The translations under genes were made by a program, and so were the position numbers. 64,000 nt of DNA from Pisolithus tinctorius (lineage: Eukaryota > Basidiomycota > Agaricomycetes > Boletales > Pisolithaceae). Below the pieces are notes generated by a model that did no database searches, was not told the origin of the DNA, and saw only the letters and a list, made by a program, of their open reading frames with translations. The DNA lies in the NCBI GenBank assembly GCA_024663395.1, contig JANFAH010000024.1:620001-684000 (forward strand), written 5' to 3'. Positions 4,533 to 60,974 of the stretch are shown piece by piece. How positions within the stretch are numbered: the stretch's first letter is position 1; each line of letters opens with the position of its first letter.

Positions 4533-4708
4533 TGTTGCAATAAATGCAACCAGACAGGGGATTGAACCCTGGACCTCCCAGGTTTTGACTGGGTGCTCTA
4601 ACCACTGAGCTATTTGGTCAAGGTATCTTGGTTTACTTGGTGTGGTTTAACCACCAAGTGCTAGTAGGGACTAGCGTTGCTGAGTGCTGGAGTATTACAC
4701 TTGCAACA
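4533..4708 (-). mobile_element. complete tRNA-bearing LTR-like miniature element
   Basis: 176 bp with ends TGTTGCAA...TTGCAACA (8-bp inverted termini of TG...CA type) and a perfect 5-bp duplication GGAAG (4528-4532, 4709-4713). On the minus strand its interior contains a cloverleaf-like tRNA module: D arm GCTC...GAGC, anticodon arm CCCAG...CTGGG with a 7-nt loop, T arm CAGGG-TTCAATC-CCCTG. These carry A-box (TAGCTCAGTGG) and B-box (GGTTCAATCCC) RNA polymerase III promoter sequences. Alternatives are a tRNA-derived SINE (but those lack TG...CA ends and fixed 5-bp duplications) or a captured tRNA gene. It is inserted in the gypsy B' protease/RT linker. Confidence 0.75.
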
Positions 4709-9559: not shown

Positions 9560-10039
9560 TGTCATAGTTGTATCTCAACCCTGGCCAGACTTGGCCTTGC
9601 ATTCATTCAGTCCAGCCTCAGCCTTGTCATTCCCTTATCCCCAGATGTCCTAGCATGGTGCACACTGCTTTGCAGTGTGTGTCACTTTGGTTAAGCCCTG
9701 CCTGGTCTTGTCCCTGGTCTGCCCTGTCCTGGTCTCCATTGCCTTTGTCATACATCATCTTAGCAATCTTTGTGAGACTGGCATTACTGGTCTCTGTACT
9801 ATAGTTGTCTCTGGTATATAAACTCATAGATACTTGGCCTGTACTCTGCAGTCTGAAATCAACCAAGTTACTCTGATAATCCTGCCTTGGCCTCAGACTC
9901 AGACTGCAACCCATGCAAGGGAATAGTGCTGCATCACCAGTTGCTAAGTCCAATCAGTCCACCCCTCTGTATCTCTGCTATACCTCTGACCCCAACTCTC
10001 CTCAGCCTCACACCCACTCTGGTCTCCACAAACTTGACA
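9560..10039 (+). repeat. element C1 5' LTR
   Basis: 480 bp, TGTCATAGTTGTATC...AACTTGACA. TATA-like TATATAAA at 9815-9822 fits a Pol II promoter. Starts directly after target duplication CTCCA. Confidence 0.9.
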
Positions 10040-17036: not shown

Positions 17037-18786
17037 TGGCTATGCCTGAGTGAACCCACTAAACCTGAGACCAGTCTTCACTCAGGAGCAGCTAGCAGTC
17101 TCCCTTTGTGCAACCTACCTTGAGTACCCAGTCTTATGAGCAGCTGCACTATGGATATAGAAAAACTTCATAATGATATCCTGACCACACTGCCAGATGA
17201 CCCAGTCTCACAGGTCCACTTGTCCAACATGTCTGATCCCCAGTGGTCAGTAGATGACACTGGTTTCCTTCAGCTTGATGGAAGGATCTACATGCCAGAC
17301 TCAAATGGTCTTCACCTTAGGGTCTTGCAGCTTAAGCATGACCACCCTCTGTCTGGCCACTTCAGCCAGAACCACACCCTAGAGCTCATCTGGCATGAAT
17401 ATACCTGGTGCAGCCTCAGGACATTTGTCAAGGACTATGTCTGGTCTTGCACAACCTGTGCTCAGGCTAAGGTTCCCTGACACTGGCCTTACGGCCTCCT
17501 CAAGCAACTCCTGCTGCTGGAGAAACCATGGAATTCCATATCTATGGATTTCATTGAGCAGCTCCTGGCCTCATCCAGCTTCATGGCCATCCTCATAGTA
17601 GTTGACTGGCTTTCCAAGCAGGCCATCTTCATCCCCACCTATGACACCATCACAGCCCCAGAACTCACCAAACTATTCCTACTCCATGTCTTTTTGAAGC
17701 ACAGAGTGCCAGCCCATGTAACCTCATACCAAGGCTTGGAGTTTGTCTTGCACTTCTTCTGGTCACTCAGTAAGGCCTTAGACATGCATCTACATTTTAC
17801 TTTGGGCTACCACCCCAAAGGTTATGGTCAGACCCCCTGGAACAATACCTCTGAGTGTACTGCAACTATCAGCAGGACAATTGGGCTGACCTACTACCTT
17901 TGGCTGAGTTTGCTTACAATAATGCCCCTAGTGCTACTACTGGTGTTTCACCCTTCTTCGCTAATAAGGGCTACCATCCTAATATCTTGGTGTACCTGGA
18001 GCGTGACCTGACCTCCACTTGGGCTCGTGACTATACAGTTGACTTAGACTCACTTCATCAATACCTATGGGAAGAAATGACCCTTGCACAACAGCACTAT
18101 CAAGGACTGGCCAATGCTAAATGCATGCCAGCCCCAGACTTCAAGGTCAGTGACCAGGTATATGTCAAAGCCAAATACTTCTGGTCAACCTGGCCTTCCA
18201 AGAAACTCTCAGAGAAGAACCTTGGACCATATCTGGTCATAGCTCAGGCTGGTACCCATTCATTCACACTGCACCTGCTGGACTCAATGTGCACAGTCCA
18301 TCCAGTCTTCCACATCTCCCAACTCAAGCTGGCCATCCCTAACACCATCCTGAACTGGACTCAGCCACCACCCCCACCAGTTGAAGTCCACAGTGAACTA
18401 GAGTTTGAGGTGGCCAAAATCCTTGACTGCAAGGTTGACCAGCATTGCTGGTGTTGGCTTCAATACTTAGTCCATTGGACTGGCTATGAGGGGACTGACA
18501 AAGAAACTACTTGGGTACTCACCACTGAGCTAGACAATGCTTCTGAACTCATACAGGAGTTCCATTCCCACTACCCCAATAAACCCAGCCCTTTCCAATG
18601 AGGACCAGCTTCAACCAGCCTCAGTTTCTGTTTCTGTTTCCTATTGGTATCTAGTTTCCCTTTGATCTCTTACTTACCTTGTTTTCCCCTTCTTGTTTCT
18701 TTTACTTTACTGTAGAACACTGGACACCAGACACCAGACATATGACATTTGCAGGAGGAAGTAGCAAGGGCACTACACTACAAACA

Positions 18787-19803
18787 CTACTTGGCCATAC
18801 CCTCATCTTCCCCTTCGGCCTCCTCCTCCTCCTCATCTTCACCATGGTTCTTCAACCAGTTGGCTTCCTCACACAACTCATCAGAGTCGAGCTCAGATGA
18901 GCCTGAGTCTGAGGGGGATACCATCATCCTGAAGCCATACAATTTGTCAAGCAGGGACTCAAGTGCATTGGCAATCTGGCCTGAAGTCTTGACTGCAGTT
19001 TCATGAAGCTCAAAGAGGCTGGCCAAGTTGTTGGCAATCAGCCCTGCTGTGTCAATAAGGCACTCGAGCTTGTCCTCCAAGCCTGAGTACCTATCTGTGC
19101 TGGACTCCCTCAGTCCACTTCCACTGGCCTCAGGTTCATTGAGGTCCAAGACCTCAATTGGCCTTGTGCTTGTCTTCACCCACTTCTGTTTGCTGGGCCC
19201 AGCCTCAGCATCCTCCTCGTCAGCCTTCTGCTTCTTCCCCTTATTGACTTTCCCAGTTTTTGGACTAGCCTCAGTGTCCTTGCCATTGCTGGGCCACTGG
19301 CACTTGCCCTTGGATTGGTTGCACCACATGCAGGCAACCTGTTTCTTGTTACCATCCATGAGAAACTCACAGATGGTTTTGGCCTGGGCACAGTGGGTGC
19401 AACTAGGAAGAAGGTTAGGAGGAATACACACAGAGTGGAAAGGTGCTCACCCAGGGTCCATCACTACTTTCTTCACCTCTCCACTGGCCTCACTACTACT
19501 GGCTCTGGCCCTGGCCTCACTACCCTTTCTGGCCTCAGCCTTGTGTCTCTCCTCCTCATGTACCCTTTTCTCCTCAGCCTCCTGCTCTGCCCTCTCAGCC
19601 TTGGCCTTCTCCCTCTCCACTCTCTCAGCCTCAAGCTGAGCCTGCTCCTCCCACCAGGCTTGTTCAGCTGCCTTTCATCTCTTCCTCTCCTTCACCTTTG
19701 CCCTCATTACCTCCTCTTCATTGTCAGTGTTGTACCTGATGTCATCATCAGGGACTTGGGCCCAATTGACAATGACTCAGCCTTCATTGGTGTTGTCAGT
19801 CAT
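18787..19803 (-). pseudogene. element C1 antisense accessory gene, coiled coil plus Zn2Cys6-like cluster
   Basis: Opposite to the element's own direction, between pol and 3' LTR. Exon 1 from ATG 19803 to 19451: an Ala/Glu/Lys/Arg-rich coiled coil with two in-frame stops (TGA near 19777, another near 19666). A 48-nt intron (19450-19403, GTGAGC...CTAG) joins it to exon 2. Exon 2 begins with CTHCAQAKTIC and continues to CMWCNQSKGKCQW, giving CX2CX6CX12CX2CX6C; then a basic region, a hydrophobic helical region, and an acidic C terminus ending at 18787. The spacing fits the fungal Zn(II)2Cys6 pattern (CX2CX6CX5-12CX2CX6-8C). Function unknown; DNA binding is inferred. Confidence 0.75.
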
Positions 19804-19951
19804 GATGATTGGCCTCAATTCAGACATGATGGATAGGATGTGGAAGAAAGATGCAAAGGGCTTAGTGGGCCACAAGTACCAATCCTTCAAACTCAGCCAA
19901 GTTTCAGACTCAGCCTACCACTCTCACAGGGGTCTCATAGGTTTGACCCCT

Positions 19952-19964: not shown

Positions 19965-20489
19965 TGTCATAGTCATATCTCAACCCTGGCTGGACTTGGC
20001 CTCACATTCATTCAGTCTGGCCTCAGCCTTGTCAATCCCTTATCCCCAGATGTCCTAGTGTGGTGAACACTGCTTTGCAGTGTGTGTCACTTCAGTTAAG
20101 CCCTGCCTGGTCTTGTCCCTGGTCCACCCTGTCCCAGTCTCCATTGCCTTTGTCATACATTACTAATACTTGTCTTACCAATCATCTTAGCAATCTTTGT
20201 GAGACTGGCATTACTGGTCTCTGTACTATAGTTGTCTCTGGTATATAAACTCATAGATACTCAGCCTGTACTCTGCAGTCTGAAATCAACCAAGTTACTC
20301 TGATAATCCTGCCTTGGCCTCAGACTCAGACTGTGACCCATGCAAGGGAATAGCACTGCATCACCAGTTGCTAAGTCCAATCAGTCCACCCCTCTGTATC
20401 TCTGCTATACCTCTGACCCTGACTCTCCTCAGCCTCATGCCTGCTCCAGTCTCTGGTCTGGCCTCAACCTGGACTTCATGAACTTGACA
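19965..20489 (+). repeat. element C1 3' LTR
   Basis: 525 bp, TGTCATAGTCATATC...AACTTGACA, with TATATAAA at 20242-20249. Longer than the 5' LTR by two small indels. Followed by target duplication CTCCA. Confidence 0.9.
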
Positions 20490-20830: not shown

Positions 20831-23648
20831 GCCTTCATTGACGAAAACCTGACTACTGGTTTCATCCAGCCCACTTCTTCCCCCTATGCTGCACTGGTCC
20901 TCTTTGTAAAAAAGAAGGATGGTTCACTCCAGTTATGTGTTGACTTCCAGGGCCTTAACAAACTCATCAAGAAAGACTGATACTCCCTACCACTAATATC
21001 TGACCTACTAGACTCCCCTAGTCACACCAAAATCTACATTAAAATCAACTTGAGGCACATGTACCACCTCATCTGGATTGCACCTGGTGATGAGTGGAAA
21101 ATGGCCTTTAGAATGCACTATGGGTCCTATGAGTGGTTGGTGATGCCTTTTGGTCTTACCAATGCCCCAGCCACCTTCCAGTGGTTTGTCAATTCAATCT
21201 TTGCAGATGTGCTAGATGTCCACATTGTCATCTACCTTGACAATATCTTAATCTATTCTGGAGATGAGTCTTCACACAAGCAGCATGTCCAGTAGGTACT
21301 TTGCCAGCTCTGGTTGCATGGCCTGTATGCCAAACCAGAGAAGTGAAAATTTCACTCAGACTCTGTGGAATATCTGGGCTACCACTTGTCCCCAACTGGC
21401 CTTACCATGTCCTCAGAAAAAGTCAAAGCCATCTGTGACTGGCCTGAGCCCTGGAAGGTAAAGGACATTCAGTCCTTCCTGGGCTTTGTCAATTTCTATT
21501 GCCAGTTCATTTTTAACTACTCATACATAGTGGTACCTCTAACCCAGTTGACATGCAAAGGTGCTCCCTGGAACTTTTCTGAGGAGTGCTGCCAGTCTTT
21601 CAATGAACTCAAGCAGGCCTTCACCTCTGCCCCAGTCCTAACTCATTTTTCCCCAGATGCTCCTACTACTGTCAAGACTGATGCATCTGACTATGCAATT
21701 GCCAGTATTTTGTCCATCACCAGTGGTGATGGTCAAATCTGGCTGGTCACATTCTACTCTTGTACCCTGACAGCCCTGGAGCTAAATTATGACACTCATG
21801 ATAAGGAATTGCTCACAATCTTCAAGGGCATTGCAGACATGGCAGCACTACTTAGAAGGATCTGCAGTACTGGTTGATGTTGTCACCAATCATAAGAACC
21901 TGGAGTATTTCTCCACCTCAAAGGTACTGACCCAGTGCCAGGTGCACTGGTCTGAGTTTTTGTCACAGTTCAATATGGTTATCTGGTTCAGACCCAGTAA
22001 ATTCAGTGCTAAGCCTGATGCCCTAACTAGATGATGGGACATCTACCCCAAAGAGGGGGATAGCAACTATGCCTGGGTCAACCCACAGAACCTCAGACTG
22101 GTCTTCATACAGGAACAACTAGCCACCTCCCTGTGCACCACTTACCTTGAGTACCCAGTCCTACATGCTGTTGCACTGATGGATGTGGAGAAACTTCATA
22201 ATGATATCCTCTCAGCTCTACCCTCAGACCCAGTCACCCAAGTCCGGTTCTCAGATACATCAGATTCCCAGTGGTCAGTTGATGACACTGGCTTCCTCCA
22301 CCTAGATGGAAGAATCTATGTACCAGACTCTAACAACTTTCACCTTTGTGTCTTGAGGTTCAAGCATGATCATCCCTTGTCTGGCCACTTTGGCCAAAGT
22401 AGAACCTTGGAACTCATCTGGCATGAATACACCTGGCCTGGCCTAAGGACATTTGTCAAAGACTATGTCTGGTCTTGTACTACCTGTGCCCAGGCCAAGG
22501 TACCCTGCCACTGGCCTTACAGCCTACTCAAGCAGCTCCCTGTGCTGGAGAAGCCATGGAATTCCATCTCAATGGATTTCATAGAGCAGCTCCTGACCTC
22601 AACCAGCTTTACCACCATTCTCATTGTGGTTGATTGGCTTTCAAAGCAAGCCATCTTCATACCTACTCATGACACCATCACAGCCCCTGAGCTTGCCAAG
22701 CTCTTTCTCATGCATGTATTCTCCAAGCATGATGTACTGGCCCATGTGACCTCAGACCAGGGATCAGAATTTGTATCCCACTTCCTCTGGTCTCTTGGTA
22801 AGGCTCTAGACATGCATCTACACTTCACCTCTGGGTATCACCCAGAGGGGGATGGTCAGACAGAGCACACCAATCAGACCCTTGAACAGTATCTCCAGGT
22901 CTACTGTAACTACCAACAGGATAACTGGGCTGAGTTACTACCATTGGCTGAATTTGCTTACAACAATGCACCTAGCACTATGACTGGGGTATCACCCTTC
23001 TTTGCTAATAAGGGTTACCACCCTAATAACTTGGTCTTCCCTGAGCATGATCTCACATCCAACTAGGCTTGTGATTATGCAGTCAACTTAGATTCACTGC
23101 ACCAGTACCTACATGAAGAAATGGCTCTTGCCCAGCAATGCTACCAAGGACTGGCAGATGCTAAGCACATGCTGGCCCCAGACTTCAAAATGGGCAACAA
23201 CATCTATGTAAAAGCCAAATATTTCCAGTTGACCTGGTCCTCCAAGAAGTTGAGTGAGAAGAACCTTGGGCCTTACCCCATAATAGCCCAGGCTGGCTCT
23301 CACTCATTCACCCTGCATTTACCAGACTCCATGCACACTGTACACCCAGTCTTCCATGTATCCCAGCTCAAACTGGCCATCCCAAATACCATACCCAACC
23401 AGACTCAACCTCCACCCCCACCAGTAGATCTCAACAGCAACTTAGAATTTGAGGTAGCAGAAATACTTGATTCAAAGGTCAACCAGTGCAGGAGGTGTTG
23501 GTTGCAGTACCTAGTCTGGTGGACTGGTTATGAGGGGTCTGATGAAGAAACCACCTGGGTACTAGCAACAGAGTTAGATAATGCCTCAGAACTTGTTCAG
23601 GAATATCATGACTGGTACCTGGACAAACCTGGTCCTTTCAAGAAATAA
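20831..23648 (+). pseudogene. element A pol, second part (RT-RH-IN-chromodomain)
   Basis: Continues the RT from 9161. RT has [22 protein letters not shown], stop TGA at 20978, then [21 protein letters not shown] and a catalytic box [10 protein letters not shown] (YLDN rather than YLDD, as in C1). More stops at 21294 and 21345. RNase H (TDASDYAIASIL ... HDKELL) has a frameshift near 21835 and ends DALTR-TGA-WDIYPKEGD. Integrase 22179-23066 is the best kept part: HHCC (KHDHPLSGHFG ... CTTC) and core D, D, E all present (VVDWLS, TSDQGSEF, GQTEHTNQ). TAG at 23064 precedes the C-terminal part with chromodomain FEVAEILDSKVN... LQYLVWWTGYEGSDEETTW. Confidence 0.87.
22050..22063 (+). promoter_or_regulatory. 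candidate central polypurine tract, element A
   Basis: AAAGAGGGGGATAG in the RNase H-integrase junction; AAGAGGGGGATA is shared with the 3' tract at 24983-24995. Confidence 0.45.
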
Positions 23649-23819: not shown

Positions 23820-24864
23820 TCAGGCTTGGGACCCAGCAGAACCAGCACCAGTCTGGTCAGCTGACTCAGACTGGGACCAGCTTTCCTCTTCTTCCTCCCT
23901 CAGCCCTGCCAGCTCTTCATTGAGCCCCTCAACATCCCTGTCCTCCTCATCAGTGGTGTCCCAGTCTGAAGGCATGTCCAGCACCAGGAATTCAAAGTGC
24001 TCTTTGACATAGGTTTTGTAGGACCAGGTGAACCAGTAAAAGTTCCTTGAGGCCTCCCTTTGGGCCACTGCTAGGCTGACCATGTTGTCAGCCACACACT
24101 CCACCACCTTGATCAGGTGCTCCATCTGATCACTGGTGACAGGACTGGCCCCAACCTCTTCCCTGGTCTTCTTCATTGATGGCCCCTTGCCCACATCTTC
24201 TTCCTTGTCACCTGCACCCTCAAGTACCTTGGCAGATGGGTGCCTTGACCTCTTCTTCTTCTCTCCAGTGCAAGGGGAGGTCATGTCTACCTTCCTCCTT
24301 CCCTTGTCCACAGCCAGACTGGCACCTGGACCGGTTTTACCTTTGACCAGCCACTGGCAATGCACCTTGACCTTGTTGCACTGGTTACAGGCCAAGCACT
24401 TCTTCTTGCCATTGGTGTTGCACAGGCAGGTCATGTTTGTCTGGGCACAATGAAGACACCTGGGAAGGTATCAGCCAGTTTCCTACCAGTCATTTGGTTG
24501 TTACTCACCAGGGGTTCATCACCTCCACATTTGACCTTGCCCTGGTCAAGCTACCCATCAGGATGTTTGCCTGCCAGCTCTCAGCCACCTTCCTGGCTTC
24601 TTCAGCCTTGTGCACAGCCTCTGCTCTCTGTGCCTCTGCCTCCGCATGTGCCCTCTCTTCTTCAAGCTGGGCTTGCTCTTGCCTTTCAGCTTCCAACCAG
24701 GCTTCCTCTTGTGCCTTTGCCTTGCACCTCCTGTGTTCAGCCAGTTTTCCCCAGATGACCTGCTCATTGTTGTCACTGCCTACCTGCAGCTCAACACTTG
24801 TCACCCAGGTCAGGTCAGGCAGGAGGTCTTGGTTGTATGGTGTTTGGGACCAGTGAATAGACAT
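23820..24864 (-). CDS. element A antisense accessory gene, coiled coil plus Zn2Cys6-like cluster
   Basis: Best preserved of three antisense genes. Exon 1: first ATG at 24864 to 24509; a long Ala/Glu/Gln/Arg-rich heptad-like stretch (KAQEEAWLEAERQEQAQLEE...), predicted coiled coil. Intron 24508-24460 (49 nt, GTGAGT...CCCAG). Exon 2 24459-23820: CLHCAQTNMTC, then CNQCNKVKVHCQW, giving CX2CX6CX12CX2CX6C, identical in spacing to C1; a Lys-rich region, a helical region (HLIKVVECVADNMVSLAVAQREAS) and an acidic tail. No stop interrupts the spliced frame from this ATG (about 330 residues). A further upstream exon is possible. The domain pattern suggests DNA binding; role in the element unknown. Confidence 0.72.
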
Positions 24865-24995
24865 GTCAAAGTGAGGAATCAAACCTGAGGTGGACTGGTC
24901 TTAAGTCCACTGGTTTTCAAGGTCAGACACCAAAATTTCATTCTCAGCATTGTCCTCATTGGAGCCTTGTGTGCTTGGCTCCAAGAGGGGGATAC

Positions 24996-25559
24996 TGTCA
25001 TGACCATGTCTAGACCACCCTAGGCCAGCTCTACCCTGGTCTCAACCAGTCTCATCCAACCCATGCCCTGGTCCTGGCCTTAACCCTTCAACCCAGAAAC
25101 ATGTTAGCTCATGAGGCACTGCAAGGCAGTGCCCAATTGAGTTGTCTGCTCAGTTGGTACCAGGCCAGTGTAACACCTGGCCCAGCCACAAGTCCTGCCC
25201 CAGTTCCTGGTAATCCTTTGTTCATAGTCTTGCTTGATAATATTCTTTGTAACATTACTTACCAATCAGTTTACCAACCATCACTGTACCAGTGCTACAT
25301 TACACTTACTATACCCTTAGTATTTAAGCCATAGGATAATCTGTTTTAGCCTCAGTCTGAAATCAATCTAGTCTCATCTAACCCAGTCTCTCTGATCTCT
25401 GTCTTCTGCCTCTCAACTGGACTACAGCCCATGCAAGGGAATAGTGCTGCGTCTTCAGTCACTAAGTCCAACAGTCCAATCCTCTAGTATCCTGTCTACC
25501 CTCTGACCCCTGACCAGACTCTGGACCAGCTTTGGACTGGTGATGAACTGGACTTAACA
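24996..25559 (+). repeat. element A 3' LTR
   Basis: 564 bp, TGTCATGACCATG...TGGACTTAACA, directly preceded by polypurine tract AAGAGGGGGATAC (24983-24995). No 5' partner in the window. Confidence 0.8.
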
Positions 25560-34717: not shown

Positions 34718-35550
34718 TGGGCTGGCACAGGCTAGGTTGGCCAACACCATTTCCAGGGAGCTCCCTCATCATGAGGTGAGGTTAGTGGTCAGCTGACACC
34801 ACTTACCAGGAGCTCAGTCATGATTAGGTGAGGTCAGCCAATACCACTTCCAGGCAGCTCCCTCATGGTTAGGTGAGGTTAGCTGAAACCACCTCCAGGG
34901 GGCTGGCACATGCTGAGGCTAGGTCAGCTGAAACCACTTTCAGGGAGCTCACTCATGATTAGGCTAGGTTGGCCAAAACCACTTGCAGGGGCTGGTACAT
35001 GCTGAGGCTAGGCCAGCTGACACCACTTCCAGGGAGCTCACTCATAGTTAGTAGGTTGGCCAACACCACTTCCAGGCAGCTCCCTCATGGTTAGGTGAGG
35101 TTGGCCAAAACCACTTCCAGGGGACTGGCACATGCTGAGGCTAGGTCAGCCAACACCACTTCCAGGGGAATGGCACATGCTGAGGCTAGGTCAGCCAACA
35201 CCACTTCCAGGGAGCTCACTCATGGTTAGGTGAGGTCAACCAAAACCACTTGTAGGGGGCTGGCACATGCTGAGGCTAGGGCCAGCTGAAACCACTTCCA
35301 GGTAGCTTACTCATGGTTAGGTGAGGTTGGCCAATACCACTTCCAGGCAGCTCACTCATCATTAGGCTAGGTCAGCCAAAACCACTTGCAGGGGGCTGGC
35401 ACATGCTGAGGCTAGGCTGGCTGAAACCACTTCCAGGTAGCTCACTCATGGTCAGGTGAGGTCAGCCCACACCACTTCCAGGCAGCTCCCTCATGGATAG
35501 GTGAGGTTGGCCAATACCACTTCCAGGGGGCAGGCACATGCTTAGGGACA
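34718..35550. repeat. 45-bp minisatellite
   Basis: About 18 tandem copies of a 45-bp unit around the core CCAACACCACTTCCAGG. Spacing of the ACCACTT motif is 45 bp at 34798, 34843, 34888, 34933 and 34978, and stays close to that afterwards. Two sub-variants recur, one with CTCATGGTTAGGTGAGG and one with GGCACATGCTGAGGCTAGG. It lies between TE debris and the host gene island. Confidence 0.9.
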
Positions 35551-35669
35551 GTTGGGCAATACAAGTCATGTACATCACTCCTGGCACTGCCTGGCTCCAT
35601 CTATATCTCTCCTCTTCCTGTTCCTTGCCTCAATCATTCTGAGCCTGAGTTGGCTCTACAAAGGGAGGG

Positions 35670-52128: not shown

Positions 52129-52800
52129 TGTCAAGTCCAGGCCTACTCCAACCAACTCTGATGCTATATAGGGCCTAGAGAAGGGTTTGGAAGCAAGTCT
52201 GACACAAGGAAGCAGAACTCTGACTGGTGGAGTGTTGGCAGGAATGAAGTCTGCCAAGACAAAGGCAGAGCAGAATGAGGGCATCAGGTTTAGCTCATGT
52301 GCTACCCCCTTGCACAATCTCAGCCCTCATATTTCAGAGGGAGAGTATAGATGGAGAGTCAGAGGTAACTCCAATGGGCAGAGGTCAGAGACAGAAGGAG
52401 TAGGAACTAAGTTGATATTCATACTGAAGAACAGCAGAGTACAATACATGCTGTTATACTGTTACAGAGGTACAGTAGCTGGAATTGGAACTGACATATG
52501 GAGACTTGTAAAATTTCAAGTAAAACTTCCTGGACAATGAATGAAGGGTAAATGGAGGACATATGAATGGGTAACACAGAACACCCAGAAAAGGAAACAG
52601 TCCAGGGGCTGAACCATGTGGTGCATGTGCTGTGGAGTACCTGACTGTGCACTGTCAGGGAGAAGTCCGAAGGTAGTCACATGACTCCTCAGAGAATGGT
52701 CTGCTTGGTCTGGTAGAAGGGCAACACAAGTCTGACAGCAGTTGGAGCAGAAGAGGGTGCAGAGTGAGTAAGGACCTAGAGTGAACGCACAGTTATGACA
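52129..52800 (-). repeat. element B 3' LTR
   Basis: 672 bp. On the minus strand it begins TGTCATAACTGTGCG and ends GACTTGACA. On the plus strand there is a TATATAGG box at 52165, directed toward the antisense gene. Confidence 0.9.
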
Positions 52801-52998: not shown

Positions 52999-54267
52999 AT
53001 GCCTTCCCAGTGCCAGAGCAAGACCCCCCAACCAACCCATGGCCATGTCTGCAACTATTCCCAAGTTGTGGATGAAGAGCTGGTCATCCTGACTGATGAC
53101 TCCACTGACACTGAGTGAGAGAAGCCTGTGGAGAAGGCACGCTGATGAGAGGAGGCTGAGCAGAGAGAGAGAGAGCACAAGGCAGAGTGCAAGGCCAAGT
53201 GTGAGGAGGCCAAGAGGTGGAAGGTGGAGGAGGAGCAGTTGGAGGCAGAGTGGAAGAAGAGAGCAGAAGAGGAGGCTCAGAAGAGAAGGGCAATGGAGGA
53301 AGAGGAGGCTTGTAAGAAGAGGGCAGCAGAGGAAGAGGCAGAGAGGCAGAGGCAGAGAGCCTCTCAGGAGAGGGCCCAGGCCAGGTGGGATGAGGCTGCG
53401 CAGAGGTGAGTAGCAGACTACTGTGAGTCAGGCAGAGCTGACCTATATATATATATTTTGATCTTATTCTACTTCAGGCTAACTGGCACAGTGTACAATG
53501 TCAACACCACCCAGAAGGTCCCTGGGGCTTCTGTGGTGGTCACCACAACCAGGAGAGCCCCCTGCACTCACTATGTAGCAAGTCTGACAGCAGGGCAGTG
53601 CAAGCCAGGGCAAGGTAAGACCAAGGCCTGCATGCCCTGCCACAAGAAGAAGAAGACCTGCAGTTGGATGTGGGAGGAGGTGGTGGCAGGGCCTTTGCAG
53701 AAGAGAGCAGGGATGGGGAGTTCCTGAGGGGAGAAGAAGAAGAGGATGCAAGGGAAGGGAAAGGAGAGAGTGACAGAGACAGAGGAAGTGGACAACAAGT
53801 GAGAGATAGGCAGAGAAGATGAGGAGGAGCCACAGACACTGCATGAGGGACCCTCAGGGGTGGGGGTCTCCTCCTGGTGGGTGGAGTGGGAATGAGAGTG
53901 GCAGCTTCAGGCTGCAGAGAGGTATGTGGCAGTGCATGAGAAGGCTGCAACAGCCTTTGAGAGGATGGCAAGGGCAGCAGAGCAGATGGTGGAGGCTGCA
54001 GAGCAGACAGCCAACAAGTGGGGGCTGTACTGTGAGTGGGTGGAATGGGTGGAGATGAGGAGGAGGGAGGATGTGCAAGAGGCCAGGATGGCTGAGCTTG
54101 AGTGCAGAGGTGGAGGATGGAAGAGGCCTCAGTTGGAGGCAGAGGACAAGAATGAGGAAGCAGATGAAGGTGCAGAGGGGGATAACAAGGAAGAGGAAGA
54201 AGTTGGAGGAGAGAAGGAAGGGAGAGAAGAACAGGAGGGTGGTGGAGAACAAGCAATGGAAGAGTAG
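52999..54267 (+). pseudogene. element B antisense accessory gene, coiled coil plus Cys cluster
   Basis: Antisense to element B in the same slot as in A and C1. Exon 1 from ATG 52999 (VVDEELVILTDDSTDTE), stops TGA at 53118, 53145 and 53148, then a long Glu/Lys/Arg/Ala coiled coil to 53405. Intron 53406-53477 (72 nt, GTGAGT...CTTCAG, containing a TA run). Exon 2 has CTHY, C and CMPCHKKKKTCSW: five of six cluster cysteines, the second replaced by Tyr. A long region follows with one stop at 53725 and others, then helical YVAVHEKAATAFERMARAAEQ and a Glu-rich C terminus ending at 54267. Confidence 0.7.
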
Positions 54268-54459: not shown

Positions 54460-57400
54460 TTATGGCAGAGGTTGGTATGGGCCAGGTTTGTGTGGATAGC
54501 ATTCATGGAAAGTGGATACTATGTCAGAAGTGTGATCTAGCTCAGTTGCAAGCAACCAAGAGGTTTCTTCATTGGTGTTCTTGTAACCAGCCCAACAGAC
54601 TAGATACAAGAGTTGACAGTGGCAGTGATGGTGGTCCACCTTAGAGTTGAGTATCTCCAACACTTCATACTCAAGGTCACCATCAACATCCACTGGTGGA
54701 GGCAGAGGCTGATGTTGGTTTGGGAACGGGTTAGCTGCAGCGGCTTCCAGTTGTGAGACATGGAAGACTGGATGTACCAAGTGCATAGAGTCAGGGAGCT
54801 TAAGGGTGACAGAACACGTACCTGGCCTGGCTAAGATGGTGAATGGACCTAAGTACTTTTCAGAGAGTTTTTCCAAAGGACAAGTGGAGTGGAAGTACTT
54901 GGCTTTGATGTAGGCCTGTTCTCCAACCTTAAACTCAGGCAGAGGTATGCGCTTGGCATCTGCTGGACCCTGGTAGTGCTGCTGAGCAGCAGACATTTCA
55001 GAGCAGAGGAAGTTATGAAGGGCAGAGAGCTCAACGACATAGTCATGAGCCCTTGGAGAAGTGAAGTCTTGGTCAGGGACCACAGACAGGTTTGGATGGT
55101 ACCCCTTGTTAGTGAAGAAGGGAGAAACCCCAGTAGTTGCACTTGGTGCATTGTTGAAAGTGAACTCCACTAGAGGTAACAGCTCAGCCCAGTTGTCTTG
55201 TTGGTAGTTACAGTAGACATGAAGGTACTGCTCAAGGGTCTGGTTCATTCATTCAGTCTGGCCATCACCTTCTGGGTGGTAACCTGAAGTGAAGTGAAGA
55301 TGCATATCAAGGGCCTTTCCTAGAGAGTGGAAGAAGTGTGAGACAAACTCAGGACCTCTGTCGGAGGTGACATTAACTGGTACTCCATGCTTGGAGAAGA
55401 CATGGGTAAGGAAGAGCTTAGTGAGTTCAGCAGAGGTGATGGAGTCATGGGTGGGGATGAACACTGCTTGCTTTGAGAGGCAGTCCACTACCACAAGGGT
55501 GGCAGAGCAGCCATTGGAGTTGGGGAGGTGTTTGATGAAGTCCATGGAGATGGAGTTCCAAGGGCTCTCTGGGACAGGGAGTTGCTTCAGCAGACTATAA
55601 GGGCAGTGGTGCAGAGTTTTGCTCCATCCACAGGTGGTGCAAGACCTGACATATTCTTTCATGTTGGAGCAGAGGTTAGGCCACACATAGTCCCTGTGGA
55701 TGAGTTCTAGGGTGCGGTTTTGCCCAAAATGGCCTGCTAGAGGATGATCATGCTTGAACCAAAGCACTTGAAGGCAGAGGTCATCAATGTCAGGGACAAA
55801 GATGCAACCATCAAGGTGGAGTAGACCATCAGAGTCCAGGGACCACTGAGGCTTAGTCAGAGTTGGGAGATGGCTGGCAGATACAGGATTGGATGGTAGG
55901 GTGGAGATGATGTTGGAGTGCAAGCACTCAACATCGAAGACCATGGCAGCATGGAGTACAGGTGCCATGAGGGTGGTGGTACAGAGGGATGATGTGAGTT
56001 GCTCCTGTGTAAACATAGGGTGGAGATTGTGAGGGTTTACCTGCACATAGTCCCTATCCCCCCCTTTTGGGTAGATGTCCCAATGTCATGTAAGTGCATT
56101 GGGTTTGGCTCCAAGGCAGCCAGGTTGGAATCAGATGGAAAGGTTGAACTGGGAAAGGTACTCTGACCAGTGGGCCTGTCAATGAGTGAGGACCTTAGAG
56201 GTGGAGAAATACTCAAGGTTTTTGTGGTCCATCACCATGTCAACAGGTAAGGCAGAACCTTCTAGGTAATGCCACCAATGGCAGAAAGCCTTGAAGATAG
56301 CCAACAGCTCCTTGTCATGGGTATCATAGTTGAGTTCTGGTGTGGTCATGGTGCAAGAGTAGAAAGTGACTGGGTGGAGTTCACCATCGGAGCAGGTGAT
56401 CAACAAAATACCAGCAATGGCATAGTTGGAGGCATTGGTTTCAACTGTAAGCAGAGCATCAGGAACCTGATGAGTGAGAAGAGGAGTGGAGCTGAAGGCA
56501 TCCTTCAGGCAGAGGAAAGCAGAGTGGCACTCCTTGGAAAAGTTCCAAGGAGCACCCTTTTGCATGAGGTGAGTGAGTGGAACAACAATGTCAGAGTAGT
56601 TATTAATGAATCATCTGTAGAAATTTGTGAAGCTGAGGAAAGACTGGATGTCTTGCACCTTCTGCAGCTCAGGCCAGTCATGGACTGCCTGAACCTTCTC
56701 AGTGGACATGGTGAGACTGGAGGGAGAAAGAACACAACCAAGGTACTCGACAGAGTTGGAGTGGAACTCACACTTCTCTGGCTTGGCATAAAGACCATGC
56801 TTTCAGAGGTGGCAGAGTACCTCTTCTACATGTTCATGGTGCGACTCCACATTCTGTGAGTAAATTAGGATGTCATCAAGGTATACCATGACACAGACAT
56901 TGAGCATGTCTGCAAAGATGCTATTGACAAACTGCTGGAAGGCTGCAGGCATGTTAGTCAGACTGAATGGCATTACCTGCCACTCATAAGAACCATAATG
57001 AGTATGGAAAGCCATTTTCCATTCATCTCCATCTGCAATGCAGACTAGATGATAGGCATGGCAGAGGTTGATCTTGGTATAGACTTTAGTGTGGCTTGGA
57101 GAGTCGAGTAGGTTGGAGATGAGTGGCAGCAGATAGTGATCTTTTTTTGTGATTTTGTTGAGTCCTCGATAATCTACACAGAGGCAGAGTGAACCATCCT
57201 TCTTCTTTATGAAGAGGACAGGGGCACCATGAGCAGAGGTGGATTGTTTGATGAAACTGTAGCCAAGATGCTCATCAATGAAGGTGTGGAGAGCTTCAAG
57301 CTCTGGTGGAGAAAGAGAGTAGATTGTGCCAATGGGTGGAGATGCTCCTTCCTTGAGGTCGATCTTGAGATCGAATGAGCAGTGTGGCAGAAGTTCTGTG

Positions 57401-59521: not shown

Positions 59522-60974
59522 TGTCAAGTCTGGGCCTACTCCGACCAACTCTGATGCTATATAAGGCCTAGAGAAGGGTTAAGAAGCAAGTCTGATACAA
59601 AGAAGCAGAATTCCAACTGGTGGAGTGTTGGCAGGAATGAAGTCTGCCAAGACAAAGGCAGAGCAGAATGAGGGTGTTGGGTTTAGCTCATGCACTACCC
59701 CCTTGCATGGTCTCAGCCCTTGTATTTCAGAGGGAGAGTATAGACAGAGAGTTGGAGGTAACTCTGACAGGCAGAGGTCAGAGACAGAAGGAGTAGGAAC
59801 TAAGTTGATATTTGTACTGAAGAACAGTGGAGTACAATACATGCTGTTATACTGTTACAGAGGTACAGTAACTGGAATTGGAACTGACATATGGAGACTC
59901 GTAAAATTTCAAGTAAAACTTCCTGGATGATGAATGAAGGGTAAACAGAGTACATACAAATGGGTAACACAGAACACCCAGAAAAGGAAACAGTCCAGGT
60001 GCTGAACCATGTGGTGCACACACTGTGGAGTACCTGACTGCGCACTGTCAGGGAGAAGTCTGAAGGTAGTCACATGACACCTCAGAGAATGGTCTGCTTG
60101 GTCTGGTAGAAGGACAACACAAGTCTGACAGCTGTCAAGTCTGGGCCTACTCCGACCAACTCAGATGCTATATAAGGTCTAGAGAAGGGTTTGGAAGCAA
60201 GTCCGACACAGAGGAACAGAACTCCAACTAGCGGAGTGGTGGCAGGAACAAAGTCCGCCGAGGTAAGGGCAGAGCAGAGTGAGGGCATCAGGTTTAGCTC
60301 ATGCGCTACCCCCTTGCATGATCTCAGCCCTTGTATTTCAGAGGGAGAGTACAAACAGAGAGTCGGAGATAACTCCGACAGGCAGAAGATGGAATCAGAG
60401 GGAGTAGGAACTAAGTTGATATTTGTACTGAAGAACAGCGGAGTACAGTACATGTTTTTATACTGCTACGGAGGTACAGTAATCGGAATCGGAACTGACA
60501 TATGGAGACTCATAAATTTTCAAGTAAAATTTCCTGGACGATGAATGAAGGGTAGATGGAGGACATATGAATGGGTAACACAGAACATCCAGAAAAGGAA
60601 ATAGTCCAGGCGCTGGACCATGCAGTGAGCGCGCTGTGGAGTACCTGACCATGAAGGTAGTCACATGACCCCTCAGAGAACGGACCGCCCGGTCTGGTAG
60701 GGGAGCAACACAAGTCCAACAGCAGTCGGAGCGGAGATGGTTCGCAACCAACAGAAGTTGGGCAGAGTTGGTGCAGAGTGAGCAAATGACCAGCGGAAAG
60801 GGTTGCAGAGTGAGCAAAGACTTATGACGAACACATGGTTATGACAACAGCAGTCAGAGCAGAGATGGTTCATAACTGACAGAAGTTGGGTGGAGTTGGT
60901 GGAGAGTGAGTGAATGACTGGCAGAAGAGGGTGCAGAGTGAGTAAGGACCTAGAGTGAATGCATGGTTATGACA
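59522..60974 (-). repeat. element B 5' LTR, split by a nested solo LTR
   Basis: Parts 59522-60131 and 60847-60974, about 735 bp when joined. Contains a sense-strand TATA-like TATAACAG region and, on the plus strand, TATATAAGG at 59558. CpG sites are mostly converted to TG/CA. Confidence 0.88.
60132..60846 (-). mobile_element. young solo LTR of family B
   Basis: 715 bp, TGTCAAGTCTGGG...TTATGACA, target duplication ACAGC at 60127-60131 and 60847-60851. Closely similar to the host LTR but with many intact CpGs (CTCCGACC, GTCCGCCGAGG, GCGCGCTG, GACCGCCCGG) at sites that read TG or CA in the other B LTRs. Best read as the most recent insertion in the window. Confidence 0.9.

Follow-up and report, generated by a model that had tools for sequence, protein, structure and literature searches.

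Chromodomain Ty3/gypsy retrotransposons of Pisolithus tinctorius carry an antisense gene under purifying selection that likely encodes a Zn2Cys6-like cluster protein

Antisense open reading frames (ORFs) in the slot between pol and the 3′ long terminal repeat (LTR), termed aORF-3R, were described in plant retrotransposons (maize Grande gene23, rice RIRE2 and Silene Retand ORF4; PMC7264820 and PMC11963269, both covered in part), with own transcription reported for some of them and DNA binding predicted or proposed for the TRP28 antisense proteins of Retand (PMC11963269). Boty-like gypsy elements of Botrytis cinerea carry an antisense additional gene, brtn (PMC7264820 and, likewise in part, PMC8365987), and the covered portions of PMC7264820 treat it as an open question, in plants and fungi alike, what the antisense accessory genes of LTR retrotransposons do. 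In human T-cell leukaemia virus type 1 (HTLV-1), the HBZ protein is made from a spliced antisense transcript from the 3′ LTR and acts on LTR transcription (PMC3185765, part of the text). For basidiomycete LTR elements, the covered part of a rotifer study mentions a dUTPase and not an antisense zinc-cluster gene (PMC5408684), and a literature search, with most subscription papers outside its coverage, found no Zn2Cys6-type antisense gene of an LTR element. A stretch of 64,000 nt (the window) in contig C24 of the 92.5-Mb genome of Pisolithus tinctorius was analysed here, in which three chromodomain Ty3/gypsy elements (A, C1 and B) hold an opposite-strand gene between pol and the 3′ LTR. Antisense accessory genes of plant and fungal LTR elements are known already; the Zn2Cys6-like version appears to be new. 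The preferred reading, to which a probability of about 0.5 is given, is an accessory antisense gene under purifying selection whose product is predicted to pair by a coiled coil, to fold a Zn2Cys6-like cluster, most likely to bind DNA (probably its own LTR) and to regulate transcription of the element.

The Pisolithus gene resembles plant aORF-3R in its slot and in being antisense to gag-pol in most copies of the lineage; it differs in that those elements are from plants, Retand being described as a non-chromovirus, and in that no Zn2Cys6-like cluster is mentioned in the covered parts of the sources. With brtn it shares the antisense placement in a fungal gypsy element, Botrytis being an ascomycete and the two having been compared by description alone. 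Pfam domains for gag, protease, reverse transcriptase and RNase H were found in the elements around the antisense gene, and integrase, SH3_Tf2-1 and chromodomain matches lie on the plus strand directly before that of element A. The gene of A (24864-23820, minus strand) is open from the ATG at 24864 to the stop at 23820, and its predicted spliced product equals an NCBI protein of P. tinctorius (P0001) at 329 of 331 residues. Exon 2 of C1 (19402-18787) is open and 25% identical to that of A, and exon 1 is broken by two in-frame stops; the gene of B (52999-54267, plus strand) is a true relative with in-frame stops in both exons. The first-pass annotation had placed an antisense gene between pol and the 3′ LTR in all three elements, which sequence, Pfam neighbours and genome copies bear out, with an open gene in A alone; its C1 start at 19803 is a second ATG, the start codon of relatives corresponding to 19827. 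The stop of the pol frame lies 172 bp past that of the antisense gene in A and 186 bp past it in C1. The start of the LTR is upstream of the antisense ATG, at a distance of 132 bp in A and 138 bp in C1 (132–199 bp over the three window copies). No full partner of the element A 3′ LTR was found within the 64-kb window, so that A looks 5′-truncated.

The genome was queried with A exon 2, C1 exon 2 and an 82-residue piece of B, which gave at least 151, 150 and 150 scored matches (first-look candidates 464, 492 and 356); these counts include pieces of single copies and likely second-haplotype contigs and are not numbers of independent insertions, and some rows of the A query are C1-type copies. 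Hundreds of LTR retrotransposon copies, many of them decayed, carry the opposite-strand extra gene. At loci found via the gene, a chromodomain was adjacent on the opposite strand in 29/30 A-type, 30/30 C1-type and 7/8 B-type cases, the exceptions being L027 (A-type; just a partial chromodomain hit, on the same strand) and L100 (B-type; no chromodomain within its flank). Starting from the integrase side, with 107 of the 151 A-query matches and all 150 C1-query matches used for pairing, an A- or C1-type gene was found downstream on the opposite strand at 65 of the best 150 SH3_Tf2-1 (PF24626) places and on the same strand at none, the distance being 451–482 bp in 63 of the 65 and 2.3–2.9 kb in the other two; a B-type match stood about 2.8 kb away at 2 of 82 further integrase places. 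Absence from most related intact elements had been named in advance as a point against the gene: among the best 150 places with an open frame of at least 1200 codons it was present at 36 of 51, and one such place without a listed partner (L074) holds an intact C1-type gene, while at 7 of 8 fetched partnerless places no A, C1 or B match was found within 2.2 kb. This check thus has a mixed outcome: with 65/150 places positive and these seven without a match, the antisense gene is a property of certain chromovirus lineages, not of every one. Five of the seven (L069–L072 and L076) have a sense frame of 440–530 amino acids after the chromodomain instead; that of L072 closes with a weak match to a CCHC zinc knuckle (E 0.0065), a Pfam scan of that of L076 gave no match, and in these other chromovirus families the frame after pol perhaps encodes a gag-like protein.

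Protein searches, which need exact shared words and may therefore understate the spread, returned 60 matches to the A exon 2 protein (57 P. tinctorius, 1 P. orientalis and 2 Melanogaster broomeanus, names as given), and a Melanogaster query returned 43 proteins of Melanogaster broomeanus, which belongs to the Boletales like Pisolithus, and 2 unnamed metagenome proteins. A profile search reported 289 relatives, the 120 listed all being from Pisolithus; 37 of these 120 (counted by eye) bear a 'Zn(2)-C6 fungal-type...' name in UniProt, a label silent on the retrotransposon, the antisense slot and the selection. This suggests that many of the more than 100 'hypothetical' or 'Zn(2)-C6' Pisolithus relatives are retrotransposon genes, which, if true, would inflate counts of fungal transcription factors.

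The gene is laid out as a predicted coiled coil, a six-cysteine cluster, a basic linker, a helical segment and an acidic tail, with a predicted intron. In 15/15 loci a GTGAGT/C donor was present 49–52 nt ahead of the codon for the first cysteine, with an AG acceptor directly before that codon (donor distance up to 55 nt in a set of 13 loci), and the LTR boundary lay 542–604 nt ahead of exon 2 in 14/14 loci examined. The LTR pairs of two CpG-rich C1-type elements differ at 0 of 534 columns (one gap) and at 5 of 529, and in both the 5-bp flanks match (target-site repeats, read by eye); a third pair, L056/L097, gave a single 55-bp match in the fetched stretch. Because the LTR pairs of two elements are near-identical, the lineage moved recently with the gene in place.

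The observed/expected ratio (o/e) of CpG was 0.00–0.10 in the element-rich 2-kb blocks of the window (one block 0.25) and 0.81–1.10 in six others. The normal-CpG blocks lie at 36–44 kb and 48–52 kb, and this abrupt division into two CpG states is consistent with decay of CpG in repeats driven by methylation. Much of the divergence among window copies is decay: the 'extra' cysteines of A are arginine sites in less decayed copies, and at arginine sites of less decayed copies the decayed ones carry Cys, His, Trp or Gln. The earlier argument for selection, from strong divergence with position kept, is confounded by this, since divergence of CpG-decayed copies proves little. Copies were therefore sorted by CpG content, and transversions, which deamination does not produce, were also counted alone; identical copies and exon 2 copies with an internal stop (8/30 A-type, 4/31 C1-type) were left out. 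Among 13 C1-type exon 2 copies with exon CpG o/e of at least 0.8, the ratio of nonsynonymous to synonymous differences per site (pN/pS) was 0.20 in the gene frame (transversions 0.21), not near 1, and 1.35, 2.08, 1.32, 0.31 and 2.56 in the five other frames; all open C1-type copies (25) gave 0.24 (transversions 0.24) and all open A-type copies (20) gave 0.31 (transversions 0.19). Per region of C1, the values were 0.21 for the cluster, 0.30 for the basic linker (transversions 0.67), 0.14 for the helical segment and 0.11 for the acidic tail, and exon 1, in the 9 of 13 loci with a start placed, gave 0.24. The gene is under frame-specific purifying selection, as had been proposed. Over the same 11 loci pN/pS was 0.18 for the gene and 0.09 for the integrase C-terminus; the gene is constrained about twice as loosely, a conservation on the order of the other element proteins as in aORF-3R. 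At the integrase end, L031, which is the A copy with the least decay, is 90–92% identical to four C1 copies; in the antisense exon 2 protein the identity is 34–38%. From these comparisons the antisense product appears to be a fast-evolving but constrained accessory protein, and the proposal of an element-encoded, selected antisense accessory gene is supported. Identity between L031 and L046 falls from 79–87% in pol to 44–57% through gene and LTR; exchange of a 3′ module by recombination between A and C1 was rejected, as plain divergence can account for the drop, with pS in pol already 0.69. Nesting of A in C1 (integrase tree) was rejected too: C1 needs two changes, but decayed rows may attract.

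The cysteine spacing of A and C1 is exactly CX2CX6CX12CX2CX6C, as first annotated. The fungal Zn2Cys6 pattern is CX2CX6CX5-12CX2CX6-8C; it was matched by 90/103 proteins, with a linker of 12 in all 90, and the B-type spacing (CX2CX8CX9CX2CX6C in L100–L105) differs. The description of B as keeping five of six cysteines holds for the window copy and the near-identical L099, which have Tyr at one position, and not for its six relatives L100–L105, which have all six. The six cysteines are invariant in 9 diverged sequences, each is kept in at least 90% of the 103 proteins, and all six are kept between sequences of 27–36% identity. A full-length structure model of a relative has a helix over residues 35–121 (pLDDT, the per-residue model confidence, 95–98 across 41–110) and a short helix after each CX2C pair. 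Foldseek against the PDB (E≤10) gave 5 weak matches to it (E 0.21–9.2), all of them zinc-cluster proteins: Pho7, Leu3 (three times) and a CBF3 chain; in a second structure comparison 1cld superposed at 1.6 Å over 33 residues and HAP1 at 2.9 Å over 38. With GAL4, Leu3, PUT3 and Pho7 the protein shares the CX2CX6CX12CX2CX6C spacing, a KxK/R motif in one half, the weak fold matches, a predicted coiled coil and an acidic region. A viral fold library (13 matches, best E 1.6), the C-terminal half searched by itself against PDB sequences (7 matches, thanatin and RET) and an NCBIfam search yielded nothing informative, and a PDB profile search with exon 2 gave 9 matches (E 0.41–4.6, histone H2B on top) with the cluster touched by the Leu3 row alone. 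As modelled, the protein most likely folds a Zn2Cys6-like cluster.

For the proposed regulator, antisense transcription would begin within the 3′ LTR or next to it, DNA would be contacted by the basic half of the cluster and the transcription machinery by the acidic tail, and the target would be the LTR. Coil, cluster, acidic tail, antisense orientation, splice signals and a start beside the 3′ LTR together point to a transcription regulator made by the element. The intron, lying on the antisense strand, would stay in the genomic sense RNA and can survive reverse transcription. HBZ (HBZ/APH), whose spliced antisense transcript begins in the 3′ LTR and whose target is LTR transcription, serves as working model, in analogy only: HBZ is a retroviral bZIP factor, and no bZIP family was among the Pfam matches shown, no search having been aimed at HBZ homology. 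CGG/CCG triplets were enriched over shuffles in 8 LTRs (z 2.5–5.0) and also in pol (z 2.8–4.2), with no enrichment in 10 host segments; pairs within 12 nt gave z 2.9–5.6 in the LTRs versus 0.9–2.6 in pol for CGG...CCG, and 2.3–7.8 versus 1.2–2.9 for CCG...CGG. The pairs are a weak hint at best of LTR binding, and LTR-specific CGG triplets as a demonstrated binding target were ruled out, since pol is enriched too and hexamers are enriched element-wide. In L046, L061, L047, L056 and L031, hexamers such as CCGGTC and AGGCCG occur mostly 5–18 times in LTR, antisense gene and pol, against 0.2–1.5 by dinucleotide expectation. A DNA-binding-type cluster, many copies, near-identical LTRs and measured selection make the regulator idea testable.

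Several results weigh against the regulator as proposed. The Pfam Zn_clus cut-off (21 bits) was never reached (best 14.5 bits), and the cluster is filed as Zn2Cys6-like, not as a Zn_clus member, for this reason. The isolated 54-residue cluster model had no fold match at all. The coiled coil stands before the cluster, whereas in fungal Zn2Cys6 factors it usually follows, and relative to those factors most tests suggest a reversed order of the two cluster halves. Enrichment of CCGGTC, AGGCCG and similar hexamers extends across the whole element, only 5 CGG/CCG triplets are invariant across nine LTRs, and pol-sense frame 1, which shares the wobble positions of the gene, also has a low pN/pS (0.31; transversions 0.59). 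The Zn2Cys6 domain of the first-pass annotation survives as a likely Zn2Cys6-like cluster and not as a settled label; of its structure test, the full-length model does not exclude a zinc cluster and the isolated model is matchless. Its suggestion that the product acts with the chromodomain integrase is unsupported, nothing having been found either way.

The strongest competitor, which we consider rather doubtful, keeps the selected protein and denies the transcriptional role: the product would steer integration, act as an RNA or cDNA chaperone, or counter silencing. Such roles fit the same sequence evidence, nothing found separates them from DNA regulation, and some plant antisense proteins are nuclear with a role given as unknown in the covered part of PMC7264820. 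The cluster, by contrast, has its fold matches among fungal transcription factors and in a kinetochore complex that binds DNA, and a coil with an acidic tail is a common layout of transcription factors.

That the six-cysteine region is another zinc finger, for example GATA- or treble-clef-like, with convergent Zn2Cys6 spacing, is unlikely. The GATA range includes CX2C-X19-CX2C, and for one A-type N-terminal half the GATA profile (PF00320) and Zn_clus were equally close (E 0.065 versus 0.092), while GATA reached E 0.12 for 1 of 56 members; the GATA gathering score was missed as well (13.3 bits against a cut-off of 26.8 for the best half peptide). Cysteines 3 and 6 are, however, conserved as well as the other four, no GATA structure is among the 5 Foldseek matches, and profile comparison aligns both halves with Zn2Cys6 halves.

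Usually, the basic half of a Zn2Cys6 cluster comes first and the PC..C half second. Here, the weak matches of the N-terminal half fall in the second half of Zn_clus (between profile positions 16 and 38; two peptides and four proteins, with one peptide contained in one of these proteins) or of PUT3, and those of the C-terminal half in the first half of Leu3 (E 1.9) or of Zn_clus (profile 1–15, B-type L103, E 0.42). Against 13 reference domains (7 from the same genome and 6 others; 25/26 halves right in leave-one-out), the C-terminal half was the more first-half-like in 85/85 distinct half pairs, and in 59/85 with the 7 genome references. Comparison by hhalign with 12 references gave two off-diagonal alignments (E 5e-5 and 2e-4, as for a single comparison); the result was also swapped with the five references not from this genome and for C1-type and A-type alone, and straight when the 7 genome domains were the references or Melanogaster was taken by itself. 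Scores of five column-shuffled controls were 14.4–19.0 (four straight, one swapped) versus 21.2 and 18.8 for the real pair. On balance these alignments tilt towards a reversed order of the halves. One locus of the genome (L004, G000:C6:1594958-1595053) encodes two Zn_clus domains in tandem; across their junction a second half is followed by a linker of 13 residues and then by a first half. If the outer halves of such a tandem were lost, the swapped order would result, and the L004 layout is a possible precursor. More speculatively still, and put forward as a tentative idea that we think improbable in full, a large group of Boletales chromoviruses might have its own antisense, spliced coiled-coil factor with a circularly permuted Zn2Cys6 cluster, which would bind the LTR and balance sense against antisense transcription as an independent counterpart of HTLV-1 HBZ.

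It is very improbable that the antisense RNA matters, through double-stranded RNA (dsRNA) control of the element, with the ORF incidental: the genomic sense RNA spans the gene in its 3′ part, so that antisense transcripts would pair with it, and dsRNA roles were proposed for plant antisense ORFs (PMC7264820, covered part), but what selection preserves is the amino-acid sequence of the gene frame, exon 1 included, and the splice signals are kept, by which a noncoding-only role is largely refuted. A chance ORF or a shadow of the sense gene held open by decay bias, for which the CpG decay of the window copies and the pol-sense frame 1 value below 1 could be cited, is refuted by the still lower gene-frame values in CpG-rich copies, the invariant cysteines, NCBI gene models for more than 100 relatives, the layout kept in Melanogaster broomeanus, the at least 150 scored genome matches of each query and the fixed orientation.

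The features of the window are collected in Table 1.

Table 1. Parts of elements A, C1 and B around the antisense gene (window positions)
Feature	Position	Strand	Basis
A exon 1 (N-terminal part and predicted coiled coil)	24509..24864	-	open frame, ATG 24864, GT donor 24508; relative modelled as long helix here
A predicted intron, GTGAGT...CCCAG, 49 nt	24460..24508	-	donor and acceptor visible in sequence
A exon 2 (six-cysteine cluster, basic linker, helical segment, acidic tail, stop)	23820..24459	-	sequence, genome matches
A cysteine cluster CX2CX6CX12CX2CX6C	24357..24458	-	sequence; six Cys conserved in relatives
A integrase (H2C2, rve)	22179..23066	+	Pfam PF17921 E 1.6e-15; PF00665 E 2e-7, just below cut-off
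A integrase C-terminus, SH3_Tf2-1 and chromodomain	23121..23648	+	PF24626 E 4.5e-15, PF00385 E 4.6e-9
A purine-rich tract and 3′ LTR start (TGTCA at 24996)	24978..25001	+	C1 has same junction, LTR start 19965
C1 exon 1, two in-frame stops	19451..19827	-	sequence, relatives
C1 exon 2, open; cysteine cluster 19401-19300	18787..19402	-	sequence, genome matches
C1 integrase end, SH3_Tf2-1 and chromodomain	17855..18601	+	Pfam E 4.3e-12 and 3.7e-9
C1 3′ LTR	19965..20437	+	blastn within window: pairs with 9560-10010, 90% identity
B exon 1, in-frame stops	52999..53405	+	sequence
B exon 2, in-frame stops; cluster 53563-53661 with 5/6 Cys	53478..54267	+	sequence
B integrase with SH3_Tf2-1 and chromodomain, two adjoining ORFs	54460..56046	-	Pfam; Chromo E 0.0043, below cut-off

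Beside element B, three LTR-like copies of 86–91% identity were seen (52129-52739, 59522-60132 and 60133-60649), two of which stand head to tail, which suggests nested or recombined insertions. Two tRNA-Phe-like genes (anticodon AAA) lie at 2216-2290 and 4546-4619, within a 99% repeat 2.3 kb apart, and an imperfect tandem array of overlapping repeats in 45-bp steps occupies 34786-35591.
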